A stretch of DNA of 36,380 bases from the NCBI GenBank assembly GCA_016219515.1, contig JACRMU010000100.1, positions 1-36,380 of the forward strand. The letters run 5' to 3'. The notes under the pieces are model-generated. The model did not search any database, had not been told where the DNA came from, and was given only the letters and a program-made list of their open reading frames with translations. Of this stretch, positions 4,903-22,115 are shown piece by piece. The first letter of the stretch is position 1; each line of letters begins with the position of its first letter. Origin of the DNA: Deltaproteobacteria bacterium (GTDB taxonomy: Bacteria; Desulfobacterota; Deferrimicrobia; Deferrimicrobiales; Deferrimicrobiaceae). The position numbers and the translations under genes are program-made.

Positions 4903-5639
4903 CAGCCGATCTTGCGCTCGAGGCTCTCCGCGAAGACGGGGTAGTTGTTCCTCAAGATCGGGATCTGCGCGCGCAGGAGCGCCACGTCGTCCGGGGAAGG
5001 CCCCTCCGTGACGGGCACGGACCGCGGTGTGAGGGGGAACCCGGTCTCCTTCTGCGCCTCCTCGAACGTCACCCCCGGGTGGAGAGAGAGCAGGCGCCAC
5101 TCGCCGGCCTGCGTGTCGTACTCCATCGTGCAGAGAGGGGTGACGAGCCGTGTCGGCCCGCCGCGGCGCCACGGATATTGCGGCGTGTCCGCCGCGGAGG
5201 TGACGAAGTCGCACTTCTCCACGAAGATCCGCGGGGAGTGCGACAGCGCAAACAGGACGACGCGCTTCGTCATGTAGTAAAGCATCGCCGATCCCGCTCC
5301 TCCGGGAAGCCGCACCTTCGGAGCGTCGTACGGCCCGATGCAGGTGAGGTTGAGGTTCCCTTTCCGGTCGATCTGCGCCCCGGAGAGGAAGAAGAGGTCG
5401 AGCTTTCCCCGCTGGGCGAGGTCGAACAGCTCCTTGGACCCTTCCGTCACCGGCGTTTCCCCCGCGCCCAGCAGGAGGTACTTCCCATGGCGGGCGTGGG
5501 ACGCCTGCGCATGCAGGACTCCCAGCAGCGGCACGGGGGAGAGGGTCCCGACCGCCGTCCGCTCGAAATCGCGCACCTCGCGGGAAATGCGGAATGCGAG
5601 GAACTCGTCTACGGTGCATCCGGGGAAGAGGAAGGGCAT
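4902..5639 (-). CDS. CoA-transferase family I, beta-type subunit (GctB/IpdB-like)
   Basis: The 245-residue product has the beta-subunit fold of two-component CoA transferases (glutaconate or 3-oxoacid CoA-transferase type). Recognisable segments include VGTLSPVPLLGVLHAQ, the strand-turn LLLGAGETP (residues 55-63), SGAQIDRKGNLN and RIFVEKCDFVTS. In GctB-type enzymes the turn after this strand carries the catalytic glutamate (E54 of Acidaminococcus, in a FESG-like motif); here the aligned residue appears to be G58. IpdAB-type ring-opening hydrolases also lack it, so thioester transfer cannot be assumed. I start at the ATG at 5639, where the family N-terminus begins and a GGAGG lies about 9 bases upstream; the longer open frame runs into the alpha gene. 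It lies 2 bases downstream of the alpha gene and is the last gene of the liv operon. Confidence 0.85.
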   Translation of the reverse strand: MPFLFPGCTVDEFLAFRISREVRDFERTAVGTLSPVPLLGVLHAQASHARHGKYLLLGAGETPVTEGSKELFDLAQRGKLDLFFLSGAQIDRKGNLNLTCIGPYDAPKVRLPGGAGSAMLYYMTKRVVLFALSHSPRIFVEKCDFVTSAADTPQYPWRRGGPTRLVTPLCTMEYDTQAGEWRLLSLHPGVTFEEAQKETGFPLTPRSVPVTEGPSPDDVALLRAQIPILRNNYPVFAESLERKIG

Positions 5640-5641
5640 GG

Positions 5642-6499
5642 CTACGCCACCTCCGCCGCAGACGTCGCCGCCCGGTACCGTTCCTCCGTCATCCCCATCA
5701 CGTACTCCGCCAGGTAGGAGGAGAACCCTTCGGCGGTCTTCGAGGCCGCAAGGTACTTTTCCACGTGGGCGCGGTCGATCCCGTAGGCGTTGACGCAAGC
5801 ACCGGGGTGGGCACCCCGCGGCGCGACGACGACCAGGTCGATGTGCAGGGCGGAGAGGAAGATCTCGCCGGGACGCGCGACGAAGGCGTCCGCCGGCACG
5901 ATCTCTTCCACGGTGACGACGGTCCGTTTCGCCGCGAGCACCGCCAGGCGGTCGGATTCGCGGGCGGAGCAGATCGCGTTTCCGTTTTCGTCGCCCCGGA
6001 TCGCGTGGATCGCCGCCCAGTCGGGCACGATCGCCGGCACCACGAAAATCTCTTTCCCGGTGTAAGGGTCCGCAAGCCGCCGGAAATCGGCGCGGACTTT
6101 CTCGTAGTCGGATCCCGCGAAACCCAGCACAGGGGAAAACGGCAGCCCGGCGGCTCCAGCCTGGAGCCCTGCGAGGATGCCGGGTCAGGAGTGCTCGCGG
6201 GTGGCAAGCCTCCCCGATTCGACCGCCCTGCGGAAGTTGGGCGCCATCCCGAATTCCCCTAAGGAGATTTGGGGGAATTCCACGGAGCGCGCGCAGCCCG
6301 CCCCGGCCAGCATGTCGACGTTGATCCCCCCGATGGGGGAGCAGACGATGTCGAGGTCCTTCTTTCCCTGCCGGATCAGCTCCCGCACCATCGCCATCGG
6401 GGGCATGACCATCGCGCCGCCGACCGCTACGCGGGAGCCGGACGGGATGGCGGCCGCCGCTTCGGCAAGAGGGACGAATTTCGCCTGGTTCAACGACAT
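5642..6499 (-). CDS. CoA-transferase family I, alpha-type subunit with in-frame TGA (possible selenoprotein or broken gene)
   Basis: This is the alpha partner of the beta gene. Residues 1-104 contain the family segments VAVGGAM and IVCSPIGGINVDML. After one TGA (6185-6187, codon 105) the same frame continues with PGILAGLQAGAAGLPF, PVLGFAGSD, the PYTGKE segment and AYGIDRAHVEKYL, ending at a TAG 2 bases before the beta gene. Read through, it is 285 residues, a normal length for the family. No frame change is needed, and the coding character does not drop after the TGA. A glutamate three residues before the TGA (E102) may match the active-site Glu of IpdA (remembered position near 105, not checked). 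The start has GGAGG 5 bases upstream. A SECIS-like hairpin follows the TGA. The alternatives are nonsense mutation or base-calling error; livH in the same operon is also damaged. Substrate unknown. Confidence 0.78.
6146..6184 (-). promoter_or_regulatory. SECIS-like two-tier hairpin directly after the in-frame TGA
   Basis: On the transcript, the six bases right after UGA (CCCGGC) pair perfectly with GCCGGG at positions 34-39. A 10-base left-hand bulge follows, then a 7-bp upper stem GGCUCCA/UGGAGCC with apical loop GGC. The apical loop begins 24 bases after UGA and has G in its first two positions. These are the size, distance and loop features expected of bacterial SECIS elements such as that of E. 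coli fdhF. High GC makes chance hairpins common, so this is a candidate only. Confidence 0.45.
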
Positions 6500-6542
6500 G
6501 AGGTCCTCCGATCCGTTGTCGGGTTCTACCGACAGTATCTCA

Positions 6543-7250
6543 CTACTGCCTTCCCCCGAGGTAGGCCTCCTTGATCTTCGGGTCGTTTCGAAGTTCCGAG
6601 GACGTCCCCTGGTGGGCGATCCTGCCGGTCTCCAGCACGTAGGCGTAGCCGGAGGCCTTGAGCGCCTGCCGGGCGTTCTGCTCCACCAGGAGCACGGTGG
6701 TGCCTTCCGCGTTGATCTCGCGAAGGATGCGGAAGATGTCGGAGACGACGAAGGGGGCGAGCCCCAGCGAGGGCTCGTCCAGCAGGAGAAGTTTCGGCCG
6801 GGCCATCAGGGCGCGCCCGATGGCCAGCATCTGCTGCTCCCCTCCGGACAGGAAGCCGCCCCGCTGCCCCTTCCGCGCTGCGAGCGCGGGGAAACGCGCC
6901 AGAATGCCGTCCAGGTCTTTCCGGACCTCCCGGTCTCTCCGGTGGTAGGCGCCCATCTCGAGGTTCTCCAGGACCGTCATCCGGGAGAGGATCGCCCTCC
7001 CCTCGGGGACGAGCGAGATCCCTTTCCGGACGATCGCCGCGGGAGAGAGCCCGGCGATCTTTTCCCCCTCGAAGGAGATATTACCGCTTGCGGGAGCCAG
7101 CAGGCCGGTGACCGTTTTCATGAACGTCGTCTTCCCGGCGCCGTTGGCCCCCAGGAGGCAGACGACGCTGCCCGGCGCCACGTCGAGGTCGATCCCCTTG
7201 AGCGCCTTGATGTTCCCGTACGACGTCGCGAGCCCCCGGACCTCAAGCAT
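6543..7250 (-). CDS. livF: Branched-chain amino acid-type ABC transporter ATPase
   Basis: LivF is one of the two ATPases that drive the LIV/HAAT-family importer at the inner membrane. Walker A is GANGAGKTT at residues 34-42, the signature is LSGGEQQMLAIGRALM, and Walker B is LLLLDEPSLGLAP; the H-loop position is VLLVEQN, with Q-N in place of the usual E-H, as is normal in LivF. The 235-residue length is typical. It overlaps the end of livG by 8 bases and is followed after 42 bases by the CoA-transferase pair, suggesting that the imported compound is then handled as a CoA ester. The true substrate could be an amino acid, amide, or aromatic or aliphatic acid. Confidence 0.93.
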   Translation of the reverse strand: MLEVRGLATSYGNIKALKGIDLDVAPGSVVCLLGANGAGKTTFMKTVTGLLAPASGNISFEGEKIAGLSPAAIVRKGISLVPEGRAILSRMTVLENLEMGAYHRRDREVRKDLDGILARFPALAARKGQRGGFLSGGEQQMLAIGRALMARPKLLLLDEPSLGLAPFVVSDIFRILREINAEGTTVLLVEQNARQALKASGYAYVLETGRIAHQGTSSELRNDPKIKEAYLGGRQ

Positions 7251-8022
7251 CGCCGCCGTCCTCCTCTTCCTTTCCGAGGTAGGCCTCGATCACTTGCGGA
7301 TTTCCGCGGATCTCCTCCGGGGTGCCTTCCGCGATCTTCCGGCCGAAATTCAGGACGACCAACCGGTCGCACACGTTCATGACGAGCGACATGTCGTGCT
7401 CGATCAGCAGTACGGTGACGCCCAGGGCGCGGATCGCAAGGATCAGCCGGTGGATCTCGCGGGTCTCGCTCTCGTTCATCCCGGCGGCCGGCTCGTCCAG
7501 CAGGAGGAGGCGCGGCTCGGCGGCCAGCGCGCGCGCGATTTCCAGACGCCTCTGGTGGCCGTAGGGCATCTTTCCGGCAGGGGATTCCTCGTATCCCGCA
7601 AGCCCCATGAACGCAAGAAGCTCATCCGTCTTCTCGCGGATGCGCCCCTCCTCGGCGCGCTGGGTCCCCGTCCGAAGCACGCTTCTCCAGATCCCCGCGC
7701 GGCTTCCGGCATGCCGGCCGACCATGACATTTTCCCGCGCAGTCATCTTGGGGAAAAGCCGGATGTTCTGGAACGTCCGCCCGATCCCTTTCCGCGTGAC
7801 GTCGTGCGGTTTCCGACCGGCGATGTCCTCGCTGCGGAAAAGGACCCGCCCCCCGCTCGGCGGGTAGATCGAGGTGACGATGTTGAACAGGGTCGTCTTG
7901 CCGGCGCCGTTCGGGCCGATGAGCCCCGCGATCTCCCCCTCGTTTACCGAAAAGGAGACGTCGTCCACCGCGCTCAGTCCGCCGAAGCTCTTCCGGATGT
8001 CGACCAGCGAAAGGAGCGCCAT
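7243..8022 (-). CDS. livG: Branched-chain amino acid-type ABC transporter ATPase
   Basis: LivG is the partner ATPase of LivF. Walker A GPNGAGKTT is at residues 36-44. The signature region reads YGHQRRLEIARALA, the variant usual in LivG proteins, followed by Walker B LLLLDEPAAGMNE and the switch histidine in LLIEHDMSLVM. The C-terminal segment IAEGTPEEIRGNPQVIEAYLG is characteristic of the LivG family and, at 259 residues, the length fits. It lies one base downstream of livM and overlaps livF by 8 bases, so the ATPases are co-translated. Its membrane partner LivH is broken in this sequence, so the transporter may be non-functional if the break is real. Confidence 0.93.
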   Translation of the reverse strand: MALLSLVDIRKSFGGLSAVDDVSFSVNEGEIAGLIGPNGAGKTTLFNIVTSIYPPSGGRVLFRSEDIAGRKPHDVTRKGIGRTFQNIRLFPKMTARENVMVGRHAGSRAGIWRSVLRTGTQRAEEGRIREKTDELLAFMGLAGYEESPAGKMPYGHQRRLEIARALAAEPRLLLLDEPAAGMNESETREIHRLILAIRALGVTVLLIEHDMSLVMNVCDRLVVLNFGRKIAEGTPEEIRGNPQVIEAYLGKEEEDGGDA

Positions 8023-8023
8023 C

Positions 8024-8971
8024 TCACGATCCTCCCGCGGGTTTTTCCCTGGTCAGCATCGCGACGAGGGCGGGATCGATCAGTCCCTGGGGCCGGAAGA
8101 CCATCGTCAGGACGACGAGGATCCCGTAAACGATGTACCGGTAGTCGCTGATCGCCCGGAGCAGCTCGGGGAGCAGGGTAAGGAGCGTTGCCCCGAAGAC
8201 CGGGCCGAAGAGGGCCTCGCTTCCTCCGAAGACGGCGAACACCAGGATCTCCACCGCGCGGTGATACGTGAAATCGGCCGGGCTGATGTAGGAGGTCGCG
8301 TGGGCGAACAGGGCGCCCGCGAGACCCGAGAGCAGCGCCCCCTGGCTGAAGGCGAGTACCTTGTAGTACGTCGTGTCGATCCCCGACGTCTCCGCCGCCG
8401 TTTCGTCCATCCGGATGGCGGTATAGGCCCTTCCCACGCGGGAGGACAAAAGCCGCAGGAAAAACAGGATCGCGAGAACGACGACCGCCGCCAGGATCAG
8501 GAAGATCGAAAGGCTGATGAACTGGTTGTTCCTCAACCCCCAGTCTTCCGGCGAGAAGCCGGCGGCCTCGACGGCGGCCAGGATCTCCCTTCCCATCTGC
8601 GGAATCGCGGCGATCCCGACGGCCCCTCCCGTCAGCGACTCCCAGTTGATGAACACCACGCGCAGCACCTCGCCGAAGCCGAGCGTCGCGATGGCCAGGT
8701 ACACTCCCCGAAGGCGGAGGGCGGGGATCCCCACGAGAATCCCCGAGACGCCCGCCAGCAGGGACCCGATGACGATTGCCGAGGGGATCGAGAACCCGTG
8801 CTGCGTGGTGAGGATGGCGGAGGCGTACGCCCCGATGCTCATGAACCCTGCGTTGCCCAAGGAAAGCTGCCCCGTGGCGAGCGTGACGTAGATGCTGATC
8901 CCGAGGAGGATGTTGATGAGGATGAAGGAACCGACCTGGAGATGGTAGGGGTTCAGCCACTCGAAGGACAC
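8024..8971 (-). CDS. livM: Branched-chain amino acid-type ABC transporter permease
   Basis: LivM is the second permease of the importer. Starting from the GTG at 8971 (VSFEWLNPYHL...) it has 315 residues, the usual length, with about eight to nine hydrophobic helices. Family segments include LATGQLSLGNAGFMSIGAYASA near the N-terminus, the coupling-helix region RVGRAYTAIRMDETAAETSGID, and the C-terminal VLTMVFRPQGL. An upstream extension of the frame falls inside livH and has low-complexity, non-membrane sequence, so I reject it. The start lies 4 bases after the livH stop. It pairs with LivH in the membrane and with LivG and LivF on the inside. Confidence 0.92.
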   Translation of the reverse strand: MSFEWLNPYHLQVGSFILINILLGISIYVTLATGQLSLGNAGFMSIGAYASAILTTQHGFSIPSAIVIGSLLAGVSGILVGIPALRLRGVYLAIATLGFGEVLRVVFINWESLTGGAVGIAAIPQMGREILAAVEAAGFSPEDWGLRNNQFISLSIFLILAAVVVLAILFFLRLLSSRVGRAYTAIRMDETAAETSGIDTTYYKVLAFSQGALLSGLAGALFAHATSYISPADFTYHRAVEILVFAVFGGSEALFGPVFGATLLTLLPELLRAISDYRYIVYGILVVLTMVFRPQGLIDPALVAMLTREKPAGGS

Positions 8972-8975
8972 GGCG

Positions 8976-9772
8976 TCACCGCTGCATTTCCGGCGGCGCC
9001 TGCCCGAACAGTCCCTGCGGGCGGAGCAGCAGCACCACGATGATCGCGGCGAAGGCGATCGCGTCCCGGTAGCCGGAGCTGCCATAGGCGACCATGAACG
9101 TCTCGGAAAGGCCGAGGATCAGCCCGCCGGCGACCGCGCCTGCGACGCTCCCCATCCCGCCGAGAATGATGATCGCCAGCCCTTTCAGGCCCATCGCCAG
9201 TCCCATCTGGTTGTTGATGTAGTTGAAGGCCATCCCGACCAGGACTCCCGCGATGCCGCCCATCGCGGAGGCGATGATGACCGTGGAGGTGATGATCCCG
9301 GTGGTGTTCACGCCCAGCAGGGCGGCGGTCTCCAGGCTCTCCGCCGTCGCTCGCAGCGCCTTGCCGGCCTTCGTCCGGTGGAGCCAGAGGGAGAGTCCGG
9401 CCATAAGAAGAAGGGAAACCGCCAGGATGGCAATCTGTACGAGATAGACGGTGACCGGCCCGACCTCGAACCGGATCTCCGCGAAAGGGGTCTCGAAAAG
9501 CTGGTTTCCCGCGCCGAACACCTTGTGTGCGACGTTCTCGAGGAGGATGGAAACGCCGACGCGGTGGCTGCGATCGCTCCCAGGAACGCCATCCAGAGCG
9601 GTGCGTGCGCCTTCGTGACGATCAGCATGCCGACGAAGGCCCCGAACATGAAGATCTCTCCGTGGGCCATGTTGATGATGTCGAGCACGCCGAAGACGAG
9701 TGTGTACCCCAACGCCACTACGGCGTAGATGCTGCCGAGGGTGATGCCGTTGATGAGTTGTTCCGCGAACAA
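8976..9772 (-). pseudogene. livH: livH permease gene with internal deletion and frameshift
   Basis: The N-terminal frame begins at a TTG (9772) and gives a clear LivH start: INGITLGSIYAVVALGYTLV and GVLDIINMAHGEIFMFGAF, up to WMAFLGAIAATA. The C-terminal frame then picks up in a different phase with VGVSILLENVAHKVFGAG and runs to the normal end RPQGLFG. Joined, the gene spans 797 bases, not a multiple of three. About 30 residues that normally lie between these blocks (the segment usually containing an ERxAYRPLR-like motif) are missing. Loss of roughly 90 bases near 9550-9570 explains both facts. It is either a genuine pseudogene or a local assembly error. All other liv genes appear intact. 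Confidence 0.85.
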
Positions 9773-9797
9773 TGCCTTCGATCGACCGCCCGCGCGC

Positions 9798-10952
9798 CTA
9801 TTGGAACATCTGGAACTTCCCGCCCTTGATGATCAGCACGACGGGATCCATGACGACGTCCCTTTCGGCGTCGAAGGAAAACTTTCCGAGGACGCCGTTG
9901 AAGTTCCTGACCTCCGCCAGGGCGTCCCGCAGCATTTTCCGGTCCGCCTTCCCGGCTTTTTTCAGCGCCTCCGCCATGATGTAGAGGGCGTCGTACGCCT
10001 GGGCGGCGAACTGGTCCGGCTTCTTCCCGTACGCCTTCGAGTACCGTGCGACGAAGGCCTTCACCTTCGGGTCGTGCCTCTCGGGATACCACGGGGTGGC
10101 CACGATCAGGCCTTCGGCCGCTTCCTTCGCGATCTCGATCACCTTCGGCGAGTTGAACCCGTTCCCGCCGACGAAGGGCGCCTTGATCCCCATCTTCCTC
10201 GCCTGCGAGAGGATGACCCCGCCCTCCTCGTAGAGCGCGGAGCAGAAGACGGCGTCCGGGGAGAGGTTCTTGATCTTGGTGAGCTGCGCTTTGTAGTCCG
10301 ACTGCCCCTTCTGGAACGTCTCCGTCGTGACGACCGTGAGATGCAGCTCTGCGGCCACCTTCTTCATGGTGTCGTAGCCCGATTTGGTGAACACGTCGTC
10401 GTTGCCGTAGAAGAGCGCCACCTTCTTGATGCTGTATTTCTTCACCGCCTTCTTCACGGAAGCGGGAATGGCGAGCGACTCCGGCAGGGAATTGCGGAAG
10501 ACGTACTTGCCGATCTGCGTGATCCCGGCGGCGGTGGTGGAGGTCCCCATGATGGGGACTCCGCTGGCGTTCGCCTCGGGGGCCACGACCTTCATCTCGG
10601 TGGAGAGCGTCGGGCCCAGTATCGCGGCCACGCGGTCGGAGTTGATCAGTTTCTGCGCGGCCGCCAGCGCCTGTTCCTGTTTCCCGGAGGAGTCCATGAC
10701 GACCAGCTCGATGTTCACTTCCTTTTTCGCGTTGATCTCGTCCCGCGCGAGCTTGAATCCGTTGGTGATCGCCTCGCCGTACCCCGATCCCTGTCCCGTG
10801 ATGATCGAGATCACCCCGATCTTCGCCGGGATCGCCGGTCCCTTCGCCTTGGCGGGCGCGGCCGCTTTCGGCGTGTCCTTGGCGGCGCCCATGAAGACCA
10901 GGGCGAACGCGAGAATCGATATGAGGCAGGTTAGGCGGAATGATCGGGACAT
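9798..10952 (-). CDS. livK: Periplasmic substrate-binding protein of the LIV-type transporter
   Basis: This is the periplasmic type-I binding protein (Peripl_BP_6 style) that captures the ligand for LivHMGF. The 384-residue product has an N-terminal signal (MSRSFRLTCLISILAFALVF) and an Ala/Lys/Pro-rich linker. Two Rossmann-like lobes follow: KIGVISIITGQGSGYGEAITNGF opens the first, and AILGPTLSTEMKVVAPEAN and GVPIMGTSTTAAGITQIGKY form the ligand cleft. The second lobe contains KVALFYGNDDVFTKSGYD. The ligand cannot be read from sequence; this family also binds amides, urea and aromatic acids. The ATG has an excellent AAAGGAGG 5 bases upstream, and a likely promoter lies at 11030-11057. It is the first gene of the operon. 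Confidence 0.92.
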   Translation of the reverse strand: MSRSFRLTCLISILAFALVFMGAAKDTPKAAAPAKAKGPAIPAKIGVISIITGQGSGYGEAITNGFKLARDEINAKKEVNIELVVMDSSGKQEQALAAAQKLINSDRVAAILGPTLSTEMKVVAPEANASGVPIMGTSTTAAGITQIGKYVFRNSLPESLAIPASVKKAVKKYSIKKVALFYGNDDVFTKSGYDTMKKVAAELHLTVVTTETFQKGQSDYKAQLTKIKNLSPDAVFCSALYEEGGVILSQARKMGIKAPFVGGNGFNSPKVIEIAKEAAEGLIVATPWYPERHDPKVKAFVARYSKAYGKKPDQFAAQAYDALYIMAEALKKAGKADRKMLRDALAEVRNFNGVLGKFSFDAERDVVMDPVVLIIKGGKFQMFQ

Positions 10953-11129: not shown

Positions 11130-11753
11130 TCAATGATCGGGAGAGAACCTCCCGAAACCCGCGCTATAGGGGCTTAAATACATCACTCCGTGCGCCTTGG
11201 TGCCCGTATCGTTGGAAATTTCCTGAATGATCGCAAACTCGCCCCAAATCGACGGCCCGATTTCCGTTCCATCGGCGGCAAACCATACTCCTCCCGATAA
11301 TACGGCATCCGCGGGAGCCGCTACGATTTTCACGAAATAGGTCCATTTCTGCTTTTTGTTGTTTGCGTCAAGGTAGGTTCCTTTTTGATGATTGGTCAGC
11401 CATGCTCCGGAACCTTTGTAGGAAGCAAATCCGAAAAATCGATCAAGCTTTAGGTCTCCGTCGCAATCCTGGTTGCTCAACCATGCATCGTTCCATTTCA
11501 TCTCCAGATCATCGTTTTTCCATGCTTGACACCAGGCCGCGTTTCTATAGGCATCGCAATATTTGCCGTTGAATATGTGGGCCTGGTAGTTGTATCCCCA
11601 TTCGTCATACCCGGTTTCAATTGCACGACCGTCAGAGGTAAGCAAAATTCCGTCCTGGATCGTTGTGCAGGCACCGGGTTCCGCAATGGCGGAAGCGAAT
11701 CCGGCCATTACAAACAGGCATGCGACCAGCATGACGAACAGAAACTTTTTCAT
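11130..11753 (-). CDS. Secreted protein of unknown function in an AT-richer patch
   Basis: The 207-residue product starts at the ATG at 11753, preceded by GGGAGG; the longer open frame has no ribosome site and adds an implausible N-terminus. Residues 1-22 or so form a signal peptide (MKKFLFVMLVACLFVMAGF) ending near ASAIAE. The mature protein is rich in Trp, Tyr, Asp and Asn and has a few cysteines (ACTT, KYCDAYR, AWCQAW, QDCDGD) that could form disulfides outside the cytoplasm. DCDGDLKLDR looks like a calcium-binding Asp loop. The EWGYNYQAHIFNG and WGEFAIIQEISND segments resemble an uncharacterised secreted family I have seen in environmental genomes, with no known function. Base composition is clearly lower in GC than its neighbours, suggesting transfer. 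It has its own strand-matched hairpin downstream. Confidence 0.82.
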   Translation of the reverse strand: MKKFLFVMLVACLFVMAGFASAIAEPGACTTIQDGILLTSDGRAIETGYDEWGYNYQAHIFNGKYCDAYRNAAWCQAWKNDDLEMKWNDAWLSNQDCDGDLKLDRFFGFASYKGSGAWLTNHQKGTYLDANNKKQKWTYFVKIVAAPADAVLSGGVWFAADGTEIGPSIWGEFAIIQEISNDTGTKAHGVMYLSPYSAGFGRFSPDH

Positions 11754-11992
11754 GTAGCCCTCCCGTTTTGGGGTGTGGAACATTACAGTAAACTGCAAAA
11801 AACATTCCGGAGAAATGCGATTTGCGGCCCATTGAATTAGGTCAGCATTTATATTCGGTTTTATGGATATAAAACATGGCCGATTGCAGGTGCCATGACG
11901 ACAGGGGAAATCGGGAGTCAAAGTTTGGAATATATTTTCCGGATTTGGCTAAGCATTGCACTGCGGGACAATGGGAAGGCGGTGAGATGAAT
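11754..11992. other. AT-richer intergenic region, no gene seen
   Basis: These 239 bases lie between the secreted-protein gene and the 3' end of tRNA-Leu. I see no coding sequence, no clear promoter hexamer pair and no repeat of the tRNA 3' end that would mark an attachment site. Short open frames here lack ribosome sites and coding character. Confidence 0.5.
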
Positions 11993-12472: not shown

Positions 12473-15400
12473 ATGAGCCCGGTGGAACTGGAAGTCGGAA
12501 AGGACGGGATCGCCGTCTTGCGCCTCGGCAGGCCGGGCGGTCCGAACTTCCTGGGACCGGCGGACATTGCCCGTTGCATCGAATTCATCGACGGCGTATC
12601 CGCAAGCGATTCCCATCGGGCTCTGGTTCTCACCGGCGGAGAGAGCTTCTCCGCCGGAACGGATTTCATCGGGGCGATGCGGGACCGCCTGGATTCCCGC
12701 TCCGGAGGACGGGCGTACCGGTTTCTTGCGGACCAGAAGATCCTGTGCGACAAGGTCCGCGGCCTTCGCATCCCCACCGTCAGCCTGGTTCGAGGACTTT
12801 GCGCGGGGTCCGCACTGGGGCTGGCCGCCGCCGCCGATTTCATGATCGTCGACGCGACGACGAGGATCCGGGTCCCGGAAGTCAAGGTGGGCCTCATCCC
12901 CGGAAACGGGGCCACCTGGCTCCTTCCGCGGCGCATGGGAGCCGCGGCCGCCAAGTATTACGGTCTCACCGCATCCCCTATGAGCGGAAAGGAGGCCGCG
13001 GGCCTCGGGCTGGCGCAGGGGTACGCGGGAGACGACGCGGAGGGATTTCTGGACGGGCTCCGGCGCACGGAAGGCCCCCTTGACGGCCGGAGGATCTCCA
13101 AGCTCCTGGAAGAGAAGGGCGCCTGCGCCGATGCCTGCAAGGAGGAAACCCGCGAGCTTGCGGGGAAGATCGACCGCCACTTCGGGTTCGGCGTGGCCAA
13201 TCGGGGCTACCTTGGGGACATCTTTGCCGGCCTCGAGGCAGCGTCGGCGGACGGGGACGCCTTTGCGCAGAATGCGCTGGCAGCCATGCGGTCGGCTTCG
13301 GCGCAAGCGGTGTGGGCCGCGGAATTCCTCATCGACACCTTCGCGCAGGACGGTCTTTACGGCGAGGACGAAGCGAGAGGCGTGGAACTCAAGTTCGCCC
13401 AGGAGATGACCGCCGGTTTCGCCCACCTGGAGGGGGTCCTCGGCCTGATGAAAGGATTTGTCTCCGGAGAGTTCGAAAGCCGCCTGGACCGCATCGTCCT
13501 GTCCGACGCCCGTGGGTTTCGCGCCTCGCTCCCGGCCGCGCCCATACCCACGGGATCCGCGCTTGAGGACGACGCTTCCTTCGTATACGAGGGAACGGAG
13601 TACGTGCTCCCCCGGGGGGCCTACCATTGCGGCGAGAAGAGCCGGGTCCTCTCCCCGGAGGGCGACACGGCCCGTCCGGCCCTCTTTCGCATCGACCTTC
13701 GCAACTCCCAATGGTCGGACGACAAGGTCGTCGACGAACTCGGGGTTCTCCGCTCGCTGATGGAGACCAAAATGGGATGGCGCGTGGTCCGCCGCGCATG
13801 GCTCTCCCATCCCGGGAAGTTCGAGCTCGACATGGTCTATCCGTACGCGTGGAGCGTGCGTCCCTCCGTCTCCCTCGACCTGGGCAGCTTCCCGGTGATC
13901 CGCCGCTTCGAGGACGGAAGGATCAACCCCGCCCGGGCGATCTTCGACCGGCTCGAAGCGCAGGGGCTCCTGGACGAACGCTGCGTGATCAACATCGGGG
14001 AGGACCAGAAGGACGGGAAGAACGTCGACGTCCGGGCATACACGTACCGGCAGATCCGGCGGGAGGCCAACCGCCTGGCGAACGTCCTGGCCGACATGGG
14101 GGTGGCGCCGGGAGACATGGTCGTCATGTACATGTCGACGGACATCGTCGGGCTGATCGCGCAACTGGCGGCGGCCTTGGCCGGGGCGACCTACCACTTC
14201 GTATTCGGGGCGAAAGGCCCCGATATTTTCAGCGACACCGTCTACAACATGGGCGCCAAGGTGATCGTCACCGAGGACGGATACCGCGTGGCGGACAAGT
14301 CCCGGGAGCTGAAAAAAGATTCGGTCGACGTAGCTCTTTCCCGCTACCTTCCGAAGGCCGTTTTCCGGGAGCGGCTGGAAGCGGTGCTGGCGGCGCTTCC
14401 GGAGGAGCTTGCCGAGGAGGGGAGGGTCGTCGGCTCCGCCGTGAACGACCGGCTGGAGGGGAAAGTCACATACAGCCGCGACTCGATGCGCGACTTCCTC
14501 GAAGTCCTTCACGAGGCGAACATAAAGAGCGTCGTCCTGTCGTCCCTCGACGAGGACGCCGCGGAAGAACTGAAAAAAGCGCTCCGGTCGAGGGACGAGG
14601 AGATCCGCCGGGCAAAAATGCGGATTGCGGCATCCGAGCGCGACGAACGCGTATTCGGCAGGTACGCCGCCGTGTTGACGGCGGCATTGCGGGGAGTTCC
14701 GGCCGAACCCGACCCCGGCGACGGCGGAGAACCCCGCCCGGCAGGCGGCCGGGAGCTCGCCGCCGCATTGCAGGGCCGTTGGACGGAGGTTTTCGAAACG
14801 GTGGGAGAGGCGATCGAAAGCCGCCACCGCGACTGGCTGAAAAACCATGTGCGGCGGCTCTTGAGCGGGACCCCGAAACCCGCCCTGGAAACCCTCCTGG
14901 TCGAAGACCACCGGGTCGACCTTCCGGAGTTCATCCTTCGCCATGCGCGTCGAAAGGGCGTGGATGCAGGGCGGCTCGACGGGATCCGGCGGCAGAGAAG
15001 CGTTATCGATCGCATCGTCGATGCTTTCGAGCGGCCCTTCGGGCGCGACGAAAAGCTGATCGTCTACGACCGCCTCACGAAGCTGGGCCTCCTGGCGAAT
15101 GCTCCGCTCGTCCCGGGAAGGGACATGCTCTGGGACGATGCGATCCGGAGGACGGAAGAGAAGCTCAAGGCCGAAGGAAAGGACATCGACGAGTTCGCGG
15201 CGGTCGAGATGGGAGGCGGGGAGCCCGCGATGCTCAGCTACTCCAGCGGCTCCACCGGCCAGCCCAAGGGGATCATCTCCCTCGTCGGCGCTCTTGTCGC
15301 CGGCGGCCAGACCATGTTCAACTCTTTCGGGCTGGCTCCCCACGAGATCCACCACACCTCCACGGACTACGGATGGATCGTGGGCCCCGCGTACGCCCTG

Positions 15401-18400
15401 TGGTTCCCGATGATGGAGGGCCGCAGCTTCCTCCTCCAGAGCTTCACGCCGACTCCCCGCAGGCTGGCCCAGGCGGTCGCGGACCACCGGGTTTCCTTTC
15501 TCAAGGCAGGCTCCCCGATCTACGAGGCGATGTCGAAGGTCGACGGGCTCTTCGAGCCCGGCAAGGGGGGATTCGACGTAAGCTCGCTCCGGCGGGAGGG
15601 ATCTCCCGGGATTTGCGGTTGCGCGGCTCCCTACTCCTATCCCGCCCATGCGCGGATCCAGGCAGTGCTCGGCGATGTCGCCATCAACTCGCTATGGCGC
15701 ACGGAGGATTTCGGATCGCAGCACGCGACGTTCAAGCGGCGCCCGAGCGTCGAGCGCCGTTGCGCGGAGACCTACCGGGACGAGCTTACGCGCCTTGCGG
15801 GCGATCGCGAGCCGGAGGAGGTGATCGCCTCGGTGCGGACCCCGATCGAGATGGACTTCGAGCACCCCGAGATCCTCCCGCTGCCGTGGGTGAATCCCGT
15901 GATCGCCGACCGGCTGGAGGACGAAGACGGCAAACGGGTCGAAAGCCCCCGCGAGGTGACCGAAGCGCTCATCACGGCGAAAGGGCGGGGCCGCAAGGCG
16001 GTGATCGGGCAGCTTCTTTACCGGGGCTCCCAGCCGCACCGCATGGCCTGGCTGATGGAAAGCAACGAGGGCCGACGGGGGGCCGCCCGGCCCGACGCGA
16101 GGCTCACCGCGGCGAAATATTACAACCACGCGTTCGCGCCCGAATGGGCGGGAAAAGGCAGGGAAGGCAGACGCCTGGCGCACGACGGCGGCGACTCGGC
16201 CTACTGGGTGCGGGTGCTCTACGACCCCGCAAGCCCGGAGGACGCGCTGATCCTTTCCGGCCCGGAAGACCCGGTGACTCCCAGGACCTTCTACGCTTCG
16301 GGCCGCTCCGGAAACATCGCCAACGTGAACGGCCACCTGGTCAACGAGACGATGTACGAAAACGCGCTGAACGAACACACCCGGTACTTCCGGAAAGTCG
16401 GCGTGACCTTCATTCATCATCCCACCAAGGACCGGACGCCGGTCGTCGTCGTTGCCCTCCAGCCGGGGATCCAGCCGGGCCAGGAGCTGGTCGACCTCGT
16501 CCAGATGACGATCCATCAGAAATTGAATCCCCAGGTCAAGCCGGAAACCCAGGACATCGTCTTCCTGGTCGCCGAAACGCCGGGTTTCGAAGGGGAGGAA
16601 ACCTTCCTCCCGATGACCCTGACGGCGAAGATCATGTACGAGCTGATCAAGTACTACGCCGGGAAGCCCCTTGAAATCCTCCAGAGGATGCATTCGGCGC
16701 TGCTGCCCGACGAGGTCCGCGCTTCGATCCGCGGGGGCGATACGGAGTTCTTCCGGGCGAATGCGTTGTTCCAGGGGATGCCGAACCTGGTCGGGCTGAA
16801 GGTCAAGGGAACCCTGATCAACCTGTTGGACCGTGTCATCGCATCCCGCGAGGGCGACGAGGCGGTGACCGCGGCGTTCCGCCCCGACGCGCCGGCGGCC
16901 GATCCTTATGCCGGAGCCCCCGGACCGCTCGTAAAGCGCCTGGGGACGAAGCCGCTTCGTCCCGGCATCGACCCGATCCCCCCCTACCAGGAGGCCTGCG
17001 GCATCGCCCGGAACGAAGACGGGATGAGCATGGTGCACAGGGACCCCGCCCTGGGGTTCCGCAAGTTCGTGCGCCCCACGCCGTCTCCGAAAGCCGGGCA
17101 GGCGCTGGTCCAGGTGCTTTACGCCGGCGCCACCTACAACGTCATCAACGGGATCACGGCCGACCCCGTCGAGGTGCTGGGCGACAAGGGCCACCACGTG
17201 CTCGGAGACGCGGCCGTCGCGCAGATCCTGGCGCTGTCTCCCGAGGCGGAGAACGAAGGGCGCCTGGCCATCGGCCAGCTCGTGCTCGTCGATCCGCTGG
17301 TGTTCAACCGCCAGGCGCCCACGGTGACCCTGGACGCGCAGCGCGAGGGCCACATCGGCGGGTACCAGGGCGGCCGCGACCAGGCCACCCTGCAGGCATT
17401 CGCCGCGTTCGACACGGGCAGCCTCATCGAGGTCCCCGTGGACATGCCGCTTCCCCTTGCGGCGACCCTGATCCTGAACGGGCCGACCGTGGAGCACGCG
17501 CTGTTCCATCCCCGCAAGCTCAACCTCGGCCCGGACGACGTTCTTCTGACCCACGGAGGCAGCGGCCACACGGGGTCCATCGCGATCGACATGGCGGCGG
17601 CCCTGGGCATCCCGGTCCTCGCTTATGTCTCCGACGCTGAGGAAGGCGAGCTCGTCCGCAAGCGCCAACCCCGGGCGGATCTCGCTTTCGTCCTGCGGAA
17701 GGACCACCCGGATGCCTTGCGGCCGGCGCCGGTCGACGACCCGGAAGGGCTGGCGAGGTGGCAGGAGGCGGTGGACCGCCTCGTGAAATCGGTCCCCCCC
17801 AAGTACCGTCCCACGAAAATCATGCAAAACGCCGGCAGGGGGCTCATGGCGGCGGACTTCCGGCTGCTGCGGCCGAGTCCCCGCGGCAGCCGCACCGCCT
17901 GGTTCTCGGGGGCCTTCGGTCTTTACGGGACGTTCAACGGGTACGACGCCGCGCTCTCCGCCGCCGATGCCCTCGGCCCGGACGGCGCGGACGTAAGGCT
18001 CGGGGAGAACGTGCTGATCCACTTCGGGGCCGCCGCGGACGCGGAAGGGATGGACGAGCAGGCGGTCGCGGCGATCGTCGAGGCCGCCCGGCTCGGGGCC
18101 CGGGTGACCGTGCTTGCCGAAACCCAGGAGCAGCAGAACCGGCTGCTTCGCCGGGAGGACGTTTCCGCGCACTTCGGCAAGACCCGGATACAGAACGTCG
18201 AGGCCCTGCGTGCGGGGGAAGGAAAGAAAAAGCTTCTCTGGCCTGCGCACATGCCCGACGTGGACGAGGGCCGCTTCGACCCGGGGCGGGAGGCCCACCG
18301 GAGCTGGCCCGGCCGGGATGCCCAGGCGCGCTTCGCCACCGAGACGGTCAGCGTGGTCAAGAACGCGCTGGCTCCCTACAACACCAACCGCACCGGATTG

Positions 18401-19949
18401 TGGGACGCGATCTGGGACAACGGCCGCCGCGACCGCCTGGGATTGAACGTGGCGCTATTGACGGAGCAAACCGGCCGCGTGGCGTACGGGGAAACCGTTT
18501 CCGGACAGACGCTGACCTGGCACCTCGCCCAGGGTTGGATGCTGCAGCGGACGATCCTTGTCCCGGCGGACCCGAAAGAGCTCGGCCCTGCCGCGACGGC
18601 CCGGGAGAAGATCGTCCGGATGGCCGGCTCCCACATGTACGAGCCCCACGAGGTGCAGGCGTTCCGGGACAAGATCGACAGGGGGCTTTATCGCTTCCCC
18701 GGGCCGGACCGGATTCACGATGCGGACCGGATTCCGCTCGGCTTCGGCGATCAGCTCCACGGCCGCGCCCCCGGTTCCACCGCTTACAGGATCGTGATCG
18801 ATCTCGACGGGGTCCGCTCGGAGCGCGAACTGTTGCAGGCCCAGGGCATCCGGATCGCCGAAGAGCTGTCGCTCATGAGGCTGCTGCTGCACCCCGTCGG
18901 TCCGGACGGATCGGTCGCCACGGTGGAGTTCCGGCTCAACCTGCCCAAGGCCAGCAATACCCTGCGCAACGCCGACCTGCACTGGTTCCGCGGCGACGCG
19001 GTCCGGCAGCTCCGGATGCTGTTGCGGCGGGTCCGGGAGGAGGCCGGCGTCAAGGCCTTGGTGCTGACGGCCGAAGGCACCCGGGCGTTCGTCCCGGGGC
19101 AGAACAGCGACGAGCTCGCCGTGATGGACGACGAGCGGATCACCGAGCTCGCCGCGCTCGCCCAGGAGACGATGAGCGCCATCGAGAGCTTCGGTATCCC
19201 GGTCGTGCTGAACCTGAACGGGCTGGCTCTTGGCGGCGGGGCCGAGCTTGTGGCTGCCGCGCACTACGTCGTCGCTTCCCGGGTCGAGCGCATCTCCCTG
19301 GGGCAGCCGGAGACCGTCATCAACCTGATCCCCGGCTTCGGCGGAACCCAGCGGCTGGTCCGGCTGATGGCGGATCGGTCCCGGCTGGGGCAAAGGAGCG
19401 GACTTCTCTTCGCGGCCGATACGATCCTCACCGGCTGGCCGATGAGCGTCGAGGAAGGGTACGCGCACGGGCTGATCTCGGAGCTTGTCCCGTCGAACTC
19501 GCTTTGCAGAGGAGCGCCACCGGGCGGCGAAGCGATGGGAAGACCCCATGGACGACAGGGAGACCGGCGCTCCAATGGATCCTTCGATCCTCACAGAGGA
19601 CGAACATGTAAAACGATGCTTGCGTCACGCCGAAACCGTCGGCCGCAGGGGAAAGGTATTGCGTTACGCCCTGGACCTCATCGTCCGCAACATCACGGAG
19701 GGGGTTCAGTACGGGGAGGAGGCATACTTTTTCGGACAGGCCGGGGCAAGCAGCGAGTTCCGGCAGTCGATCGCCCGTTTCCGCAACCACGTTCCGCTTC
19801 CGCGTCCTCCGCGCCGCCCGATGACGGAAACGGAACGCTTCAGGGTTCGGCAATTGACGGACGAGGCGCTTGCGGAAGCGAAGACGCGCGACGCGATGGA
19901 ATGGAAAGAGTTCGCCGGGCCCAGGGCGGAGTTGCGTTCTCGTCGATAA
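12473..19949 (+). CDS. Giant fusion: crotonase - acyl-CoA synthetase - enoyl-CoA reductase - crotonase (propionyl-CoA-synthase-like), frameshifted near 3' end
   Basis: One continuous frame encodes about 2,340 residues; after a +1 shift near 19490-19510 the last ~150 residues complete the second crotonase (about 2,490 in all). Order: crotonase 1 (residues 1-280; oxyanion loop FSAGTDF at 59, E136 in VPEVKVG); an unassigned linker (280-460); AMP-forming acyl-CoA synthetase (463-1400; P-loop YSSGSTGQPKG at 923, SLWRTED, GRSGNIANVNGH, catalytic Lys K1386 in LTAKIM), with an unusual insert at about 618-872; a CCR/Pcs-type medium-chain reductase (1515-2090; nucleotide loop GGSGHTG at 1695); and crotonase 2 (2100-end; E2258 in GGGAELV and E2280 in GQPETV). 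These are the three activities of propionyl-CoA synthase (3-hydroxyacid to 3-hydroxyacyl-CoA to enoyl-CoA to acyl-CoA), but Chloroflexus Pcs is ACS-ECH-ECR and about 1,820 residues. Substrate is inferred only. Cytoplasmic; ATP and probably NADPH dependent. GGAG lies 10 bases before the ATG; no clear promoter seen. Confidence 0.85.
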
Positions 19950-20003
19950 ATAATGGTAGTATTGTTCGTACCCCGATACCCCTCCACATCCAAGGAGGCA
20001 CGG

Positions 20004-20969
20004 TTGTCGGAATCCGTTTATTTCATAACCGGCGTGGCGGGCTTCATCGGCTCCCACGTTGCCTTGTCTCTGCTTCGGCGCGGCGACCGCATCTTCGGAC
20101 TGGACAACTTCGACCCCTTCTACGCCCGGGAGATCAAGGAGCGGAACCTTTCGGCGCTCAAGGAGCACCCGGGGTTCCGTTTTATCGAGGGAGACATCCG
20201 TGACGCGTCGGCGCTCCGTCGTTGGGGAGCGGGCGAGTCGCCGGCTGCGCTGATCCACCTCGCCGCCAAGGCGGGCGTCCGGCCGTCGGTCGCGGACCCC
20301 GCGGCCTATGCGGACGTCAACGTCATGGGGACCGTGCGGGTCCTCGAATGGGCGAGGGACCGCTCCGTCCCCCGCGTGCTCTTCGCCTCCTCCTCCTCCG
20401 TCTACGGGGGGAACATGAAGGTCCCCTTTTCCGAGGACGATTTCGTCGACCGTCCGGTCAGCCCCTACGCAGCCACGAAGAAGGCGGGGGAGCTTCTCTG
20501 CCATGCGTGGTCCCACCTCCACGGGATGAACGTCGTGTCGCTCCGCTTCTTCACCGTCTACGGGCCGGCGCAGCGGCCGGAGATGGCGATCCACAAGTTC
20601 ACCCGGGATCTCCTGGCGGGGAAGGAAATCGAGATCTTCGGCGACGGGACGACCCGGAGGGACTACACGTACATCGACGACATCGTGGGCGGCGTCCTCG
20701 GCGCGCTTTCCGCGCCCGGCGGATACCGCGTCTACAACCTGGGGGAGTCCGCGACGATCTCCCTTTCCGACCTCGTGGCCCTGCTGGAGAAAGCCACCGG
20801 CGTCCGCGCGAAGCGGAAGCGCCTTCCCCTCCAGCCGGGAGACGTTCCCGTGACCTATGCCGACATTTCGCGGGCCCGCGCGGAGATCGGGTACGACCCG
20901 AAGACCCCCGTGGAGGCCGGCGTGAAGAAATTCGTCGAATGGTACCGCGGTACCGGGAAACCCCAATAA
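20004..20969 (+). CDS. NAD-dependent nucleotide-sugar epimerase (UDP-glucuronate 4-epimerase-like)
   Basis: The 321-residue protein is an extended short-chain dehydrogenase. The N-terminal dinucleotide motif GVAGFIGSHVA follows the first strand, DNFDPFY is the cofactor-adenosine acidic turn typical of UDP-glucuronate epimerases, SSSSVYGG supplies the catalytic Ser/Thr region and YAATKKAGE the YxxxK pair. SLRFFTVYGPAQRPEMAIHKF is a substrate-binding stretch, and GDGTTRRDYTYIDD the C-terminal signature. Such enzymes interconvert UDP-glucuronate and UDP-galacturonate for surface polysaccharide; UDP-glucose 4-epimerase is the alternative. I use the TTG at 20004 because a perfect AAGGAGG lies 5 bases upstream and homology begins just after it. 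It starts 54 bases after the giant gene and precedes the FBP aldolase/phosphatase gene by 24 bases. Confidence 0.87.
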   Translation: MSESVYFITGVAGFIGSHVALSLLRRGDRIFGLDNFDPFYAREIKERNLSALKEHPGFRFIEGDIRDASALRRWGAGESPAALIHLAAKAGVRPSVADPAAYADVNVMGTVRVLEWARDRSVPRVLFASSSSVYGGNMKVPFSEDDFVDRPVSPYAATKKAGELLCHAWSHLHGMNVVSLRFFTVYGPAQRPEMAIHKFTRDLLAGKEIEIFGDGTTRRDYTYIDDIVGGVLGALSAPGGYRVYNLGESATISLSDLVALLEKATGVRAKRKRLPLQPGDVPVTYADISRARAEIGYDPKTPVEAGVKKFVEWYRGTGKPQ

Positions 20970-20993: not shown

Positions 20994-22115
20994 ATGAAGA
21001 TCACGCTTTCGGTCATCAAGGCGGACATCGGCTCCATCGGGGGCCACATCCGTCCCAGCGCGAAGCTCCTCGATGAGGTCCGCCGGAAGGTCGCGGAGAT
21101 CGGCAAAGGCCTGCTGATCGATACCTATATCGGGTTCACGGGGGACGACATCGCGATCCTGATGACGCACACCGGCGGCAACCTGAACGAGAAGGTCCAC
21201 AAGCTCGCATGGGACGCCTTCCTCGCCGGGACGGAAGTCGCCAAGGCGCAGGGGCTCTACGGCGCGGGGCAGGACCTGCTCAAGGACTCCTTCTCCGGGA
21301 ACGTGAAGGGGATGGGTCCCGCCGTGGCGGAGATGACCTTCGAGGAGCGGCCCAACGAGCCGTTCCTCCTGTTCGCCGCGGACAAGACGGACCCGGGCGC
21401 CTACAACCTGCCGTGCTACATGGCGTTCGCCGACCCGATGCACAGCGCCGGGCTCATTCTTTCCGCCAAGGTGGGGATGGGGTTCACCTTCCGGATCATG
21501 GATGTCGCGCATACGGATGGGGACCGGTGCATCGACCTGAACGCGCCCGAGGACCTCTACGACATCGCCGCGCTGCTGCGCGACCAGGAGCGGTTCGTCG
21601 TCGAATCGATCCGCTCCCGCGCCTCGGGAGACATCGCTGCGTCGGTGAGCACGACCCGGCTGCACAACATCGCGGGGAAGTACACCGGCAAGGACGACCC
21701 CGTGATGCTGGTGCGGGTGCAGGGGAACTTCCCCGCCACCGGGGAAGTGCTTTCCCCGTTCACCATCGGCCACCTCGTGGCGGGCTTCATGCGGGGGAGC
21801 CACCACGGCGCGCTGATGCCGGTGACCGCGAACACGGGAATCTCCTTCTTCGACGGGCCGCCGATCGTCTCCTGCCTCGCCTTCTGCATCAAGAACGGCA
21901 AGCTCACGGAACCGGCGGACGCCTTCGACCATCCGTACTGGGAGTACGTCCGGACGAAGGTGTCGGCGAAGTCCGAGGACCTTCGCCGGCAGGGATTCTT
22001 CGGCCCGGCGATGCTTCCGTACAGCGAGCTGGAGTACGGCGGGATCGTCGACCGCCTGAAGAAAATGGACTCGAAATTCCGCGTCGTCTCGGGGAAGGAA
22101 GGGGTCAAGGCCTAA
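20994..22115 (+). CDS. fbp: Bifunctional fructose-1,6-bisphosphate aldolase/phosphatase (archaeal/deep-bacterial type)
   Basis: This enzyme condenses dihydroxyacetone phosphate and glyceraldehyde-3-phosphate and dephosphorylates the product to fructose-6-phosphate in one active site, driving gluconeogenesis in one direction. The 373 residues carry the family features: MKITLSVIKADIGSIGGH at the N-terminus (Asp and His are metal ligands in structures), DTYIGFTGDDIAILMTH, FLLFAADKTDPGAYNLP with the Lys expected to form the Schiff base, PMHSAGLILS, and near the C-terminus LRRQGFFGPAMLPYSELEYGGI. The ATG has an AAGGAGG about 8 bases upstream. pgi follows after 104 bases, so F6P made here can go to G6P. 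The family is common in archaea and certain autotrophic or thermophilic bacteria and less so elsewhere. Identity is firm. Confidence 0.94.
   Translation: MKITLSVIKADIGSIGGHIRPSAKLLDEVRRKVAEIGKGLLIDTYIGFTGDDIAILMTHTGGNLNEKVHKLAWDAFLAGTEVAKAQGLYGAGQDLLKDSFSGNVKGMGPAVAEMTFEERPNEPFLLFAADKTDPGAYNLPCYMAFADPMHSAGLILSAKVGMGFTFRIMDVAHTDGDRCIDLNAPEDLYDIAALLRDQERFVVESIRSRASGDIAASVSTTRLHNIAGKYTGKDDPVMLVRVQGNFPATGEVLSPFTIGHLVAGFMRGSHHGALMPVTANTGISFFDGPPIVSCLAFCIKNGKLTEPADAFDHPYWEYVRTKVSAKSEDLRRQGFFGPAMLPYSELEYGGIVDRLKKMDSKFRVVSGKEGVKA

Follow-up and report, generated by a model that had tools for sequence, protein, structure and literature searches.

In the window, a stretch of 36,380 nucleotides, one long open reading frame formally runs from 12473 to 20203 on the plus strand and encodes 2576 residues. 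The gene itself occupies 12473-19949 (+): residues 1-2345 are read in one frame to about 19507, after which a different frame leads to the stop at 19949. Pfam and PDB matches define four modules, in the order ECH1-ACS-ECR-ECH2 from the amino to the carboxy terminus, all on the plus strand. ECH1 (12473-13507) is a crotonase-fold module nearest to models of 3-hydroxyisobutyryl-CoA hydrolase (HIBCH). It is joined by a linker (13508-13702), with limits set by the domain matches and relatively weak constraint, to ACS (13703-16732), an AMP-forming module of the acetyl/propionyl-CoA synthetase type, in which two matched halves flank an insert (14339-15112, residues 623-880) delimited by alignment and profile comparison. 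ECR (16934-18766), assigned by domain matches, HMMs and a tree, is an enoyl-CoA reductase of the MDR superfamily and of the type found in propionyl-CoA synthase (Pcs), with an insertion of about 190 residues (17945-18532) evident from alignment. The core of ECH2 (18860-19492), a crotonase with Glu2258 and Glu2280, was recognized by domain match, tree and motifs, and is followed by a C-terminal extension (19508-19949). Comparison with orthologues shows that a loss of 62 nt has put this extension out of frame; it matches the extension following the hydratase of Pcs.

Pfam finds two crotonase stretches and an AMP-binding domain, with the first crotonase at residues 10-291 and the AMP-binding match in two pieces, the better one at 892-1078. 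In phmmer searches of the PDB, the ACS part of the Pcs structure 6eqo aligns with residues 477-673 and 917-1127, its ECR part with residues 1493-2032, and its ECH segment (6eqo residues 908-1212) with residues from about 2160 to 2369. The original prediction of one gene of about 7.5 kb, encoding crotonase, synthetase, reductase and crotonase, is thus borne out for the four modules and their order, but the proposed end at 19949 is reached only through a change of frame.

Relative to three orthologues (L002, L003 and L014), in which one frame is open through to the natural stop, 62 nt are missing from the window around 19508 (region 19480-19530), so that the last 150 or so codons of its gene lie in another frame. 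The shift falls inside the C-terminal extension of ECH2, and the loss is either a true mutation or an error in the assembly of the metagenome-assembled genome (MAG). A programmed frameshift is unsupported, since the orthologues can be read through without a change of frame and the 62 nt are simply absent from the window. An apparent break in another genome (G024) coincides with a string of N in its scaffold.

Affinities of the four modules

A Pcs-ECR HMM aligns with the reductase module from end to end at 184-195 bits, whereas a CCR HMM gives it 26-30 bits, and its 54.3 bits with the curated CCR model TIGR01751 are below the cut-off of 378.55. CCRs belong to the same MDR reductase superfamily, but those aligned lack the insertion of about 190 residues, which is common to Pcs and haloarchaeal stand-alone reductases. 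The HMM scores, the curated cut-off and the insertion together rule out a CCR-type reductase. In the tree, the fusion, Pcs and stand-alone Pcs-type reductases split from the CCRs with support of 100/100; the fusion branch is very long, identity to Pcs ECR is about 25-27%, and branching within the Pcs side has support of 52/28.

ECH2 falls into one clade with the ECH of Pcs (100/97), has 6eqo as its best PDB match (97.9 bits, residues 908-1212), and carries a C-terminal extension of about 120 residues that matches the Pcs extension (E 5e-12). Both of its catalytic glutamates, Glu2258 and Glu2280, are kept in the four full sequences (window numbering). In ECH1, Glu136 is kept and the position of the first catalytic glutamate is taken by Gly116. 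HIBCH-type proteins (PRK05617, 4hdt) are its best family matches, with part of the C-terminal region included, but its 86-90 bits with PRK05617 are far below the curated cut-off of 274. An IPGNGA motif in ECH1 aligns with IPDVGG in 4hdt, placing glycine where 4hdt has aspartate after the catalytic glutamate; this aspartate we take to be a functional residue of 3-hydroxyisobutyryl-CoA hydrolase. The AU test does not reject a tree that unites ECH1 with ECH2 (p 0.144), and an origin by duplication is possible, although the best matches of ECH1 are of HIBCH type. The expectation that Pcs would not account for the N-terminal crotonase holds, as ECH1 is HIBCH-like and has no counterpart in Pcs.

The ligase module is closest to Pcs in profile-profile comparison (241 for Pcs, 190 for AcsA, 171 for PrpE), but single-HMM scores do not separate the families (98 bits for Pcs, 112 bits for AcsA), and the tree gives support of 88 to a link with Pcs without rejecting a grouping with AcsA or PrpE (AU p 0.10). 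The ACS insert sits at the same place as the insert in Pcs ACS. Its first 90 or so residues align with the latter, and the remaining 170 or so are specific to the fusion family. Compared alone with Pcs, the insert gives an E-value of 1.8e-4 over 54 columns, with a probability of only 49%; it is predicted to be helical, with moderate confidence only.

Long branches limit all three module trees (ECR, ECH and ACS). On the available comparisons, homology of ECR and ECH2 to the Pcs domains is well supported, and homology of ACS to Pcs ACS moderately so. The original prediction, which had offered a rearranged Pcs or a separate assembly, therefore finds its Pcs component upheld by scores and phylogeny for ECR and ECH2, both of which match Pcs far above CCRs or generic crotonases, whereas ACS only leans towards Pcs.

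The supposition that each module would carry its key motifs is right for ECH2, but ECH1 has only the second glutamate and ACS is incomplete. ACS keeps the P-loop (YSSGSTGQPKG at 923, motif A3), the TE motif at 1077-1078, Arg1278 and the C-terminal Lys1386 (window numbering, from the four full sequences and the alignment). In every orthologue aligned, the A7 aspartate is replaced by proline (Pro1264), the second A8 arginine by leucine (Leu1289), and the hinge aspartate pair by Gly-Asn. The A7 aspartate presumably binds ribose; here and elsewhere we assume the residue roles familiar from acetyl-CoA synthetases and crotonases. The two missing residues and the altered hinge suggest that adenylation may be lost or changed.

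Distribution, constraint and genomic context

Searches of 59 relatives gave matches with E <= 1e-20 in 11, two of which (L010 and L011) are short crotonase matches at 35-37% identity. That leaves orthologous matches in the window's own genome plus eight more, one of the eight (G021) having a C-terminal piece. Within the class, carriers make up 8 of 26 species (G000, G003, G005, G012, G013, G016, G017 and G024), a count that includes some genomes with contig-end pieces only, in addition to the remnant in G021, and the distribution is patchy. A scan of genome contigs found five carriers, all "Deltaproteobacteria" MAGs, and a sample of 395 genomes drawn evenly from the phylum added one more (G300), which agrees with the L014 genome (G404) in both size and position. 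This last fusion is about 78% identical and lies in a 5.6 Mb genome placed in another family, with 6% contamination listed; it may reflect either transfer or a mis-binned contig. The piece in G021 (L062, 15145-16080) is preceded by unrelated sequence, has a broken frame, and is either a remnant or a contig artefact.

The architecture recurs at 71-86% identity in other genomes, and L002, L003 and L014 encode it as single open reading frames of 2,496-2,519 residues from the aligned start. The original prediction had allowed that the gene might be an assembly chimera of separate neighbouring genes. Despite the disrupted frame at the 3' end of the window copy, this is ruled out to near certainty by the identical joins in the single open reading frames of L002, L003/L016 and L014, and partly in L004, L006, L007 and L008, from several independently assembled MAGs: the fusion is real.

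Nei-Gojobori dN/dS between the window and its congener L002 is 0.09-0.25 across all segments; the ACS halves, at 0.09-0.13, show the same degree of constraint as ECR and ECH2. Values between L003 and L014 are higher, at 0.18-0.31 for the catalytic modules and 0.53-0.66 for the linker and insert. Purifying selection acts on every segment, and together with the conservation at 71-86% identity, the dN/dS of about 0.09-0.25 (window and congener) means that the architecture is not due to chance.

In the window, the fusion gene follows genes for tRNA-Leu and tRNA-Cys and precedes genes for an epimerase and a member of the FBPase_3 family; genes for an ABC transporter of the branched-chain amino acid type lie further upstream. 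This neighbourhood is kept within the genus over the stretch compared, and the flanking genes sampled in other genomes revealed no common partner and no conserved operon. The FBPase_3-family gene (20994-22115), just downstream, is present in the congener too, or at least its beginning is. An open reading frame adjoining the tRNA genes (11130-11921) has a low third-position GC content (0.54), unlike its neighbours.

Proposed chemistry and origin

Together, the sequence comparisons suggest that the fusion is a conserved Pcs-like enzyme, either rearranged or separately assembled, and we lean, by a modest degree, towards a divergent, rearranged relative of Pcs that probably converts a 3-hydroxy acid to a saturated acyl-CoA. 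The module set fits a chemistry of activation, dehydration and reduction, from which we infer substrate, activity, step order and possible channelling. ACS would use ATP and CoA to activate the 3-hydroxy acid, either 3-hydroxypropionate or a closely related compound. ECH2 would remove water to give a 2-enoyl-CoA, which ECR, with NAD(P)H as reductant, would turn into the saturated acyl-CoA; as in Pcs, a single polypeptide would carry out all of these steps. ECH1 is probably accessory, with a role in binding, proofreading or structure. Propionyl-CoA, if this is the product, could feed a host route through propionyl-CoA carboxylase and methylmalonyl-CoA mutase. Matches to the mutase and the carboxyltransferase occur both in the window genome and in that of its congener (G003), but such matches are near-universal in the 26 relatives, fusion carriers or not, and so say nothing about the substrate and show only a possible use of the product.

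As to history, it is a serious contender, if not quite the favourite, that separate ACS, ECR and ECH genes of the Pcs kind were fused twice, once to give Pcs and once in the present order, with no rearrangement of one fusion into the other; such a history is compatible with the enzyme proposed above. The ECH and ACS trees place the fusion family beside the Pcs clade and not inside it, and on haloarchaeal plasmids Pcs-type reductases are encoded separately, near CoA-ligase and crotonase genes (L031, 5454-10809; L032, 4194-11572). However, the annotation of the neighbouring ligases goes no further than "acetate--CoA ligase family"; we assume that they are of the ADP-forming kind, and they may not be the ancestor of ACS, and the low branching support within the Pcs side of the ECR tree also weighs against this history.

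The activation step is the part of the chemistry that the missing ACS residues weaken. There is perhaps one chance in four that ACS no longer adenylates and serves as a scaffold or as a CoA-binding wall of the chamber, while ECH2 and ECR dehydrate and reduce a 3-hydroxyacyl-CoA made elsewhere. The invariance of the altered A7, A8 and hinge positions among orthologues would fit this reading, as would the additional family-specific part of the insert, but the conserved P-loop, TE motif, Arg1278 and Lys1386, and the constraint on the ACS halves (on a par with ECR and ECH2 in the congeneric comparison), speak for a ligase that is still at work. We give about the same limited credence to a separately assembled acyl-CoA nanoreactor, with its other module order, HIBCH-like module and reshaped ligase, that would act on an acid other than 3-hydroxypropionate. 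Rather unlikely is a different substrate such as 3-hydroxyisobutyrate, which would be converted to isobutyryl-CoA, the branched acyl-CoA also being the target of ECH1: the best matches of ECH1 (PRK05617, 4hdt) would suit it, but the glycine at the 4hdt aspartate position would not.

Comparison with propionyl-CoA synthase

Pcs was represented by 6eqo and six proteins of Pcs length, two from haloarchaeal plasmids and four from alphaproteobacterial genomes. On one such plasmid (L030), a gene of Pcs length (5425-10878) lies a few kb from genes for methylmalonyl-CoA mutase and meaB (16017-19194). The stand-alone reductases of haloarchaea (L031, L032) are of the same type as the fusion ECR and share its insertion, but are separate, unfused genes. 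A literature search of titles and abstract beginnings found no description of the ECH1-ACS-ECR-ECH2 architecture. AlphaFold2 models of ACS and of ECR-ECH2, built from alignments of 5-7 rows, had pLDDT values of 37 and 39.

Pcs, described as having a closed internal reaction chamber in work cited in PMC9889269, serves as a model of how a toxic intermediate can be channelled within a single polypeptide. A relative with another module order would offer a direct natural test of the dependence of chamber function on the order of the chain, and its added module and altered ligase would make it a source for enzyme engineering.

The fusion resembles Pcs in that its ECR is homologous and has the same insertion of about 190 residues, its ECH2 is homologous and carries the same extension at the C-terminus, and its ACS belongs to the same superfamily and has an insert at the corresponding position. 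It departs from the Pcs order ACS-ECH-ECR in that ECH2 is C-terminal and not between ACS and ECR, and in its length of about 2,500 residues, compared with about 1,820 for Pcs. It differs further in its extra HIBCH-like module, in the absence of the complete ACS catalytic motif set of Pcs, and in its strong divergence.
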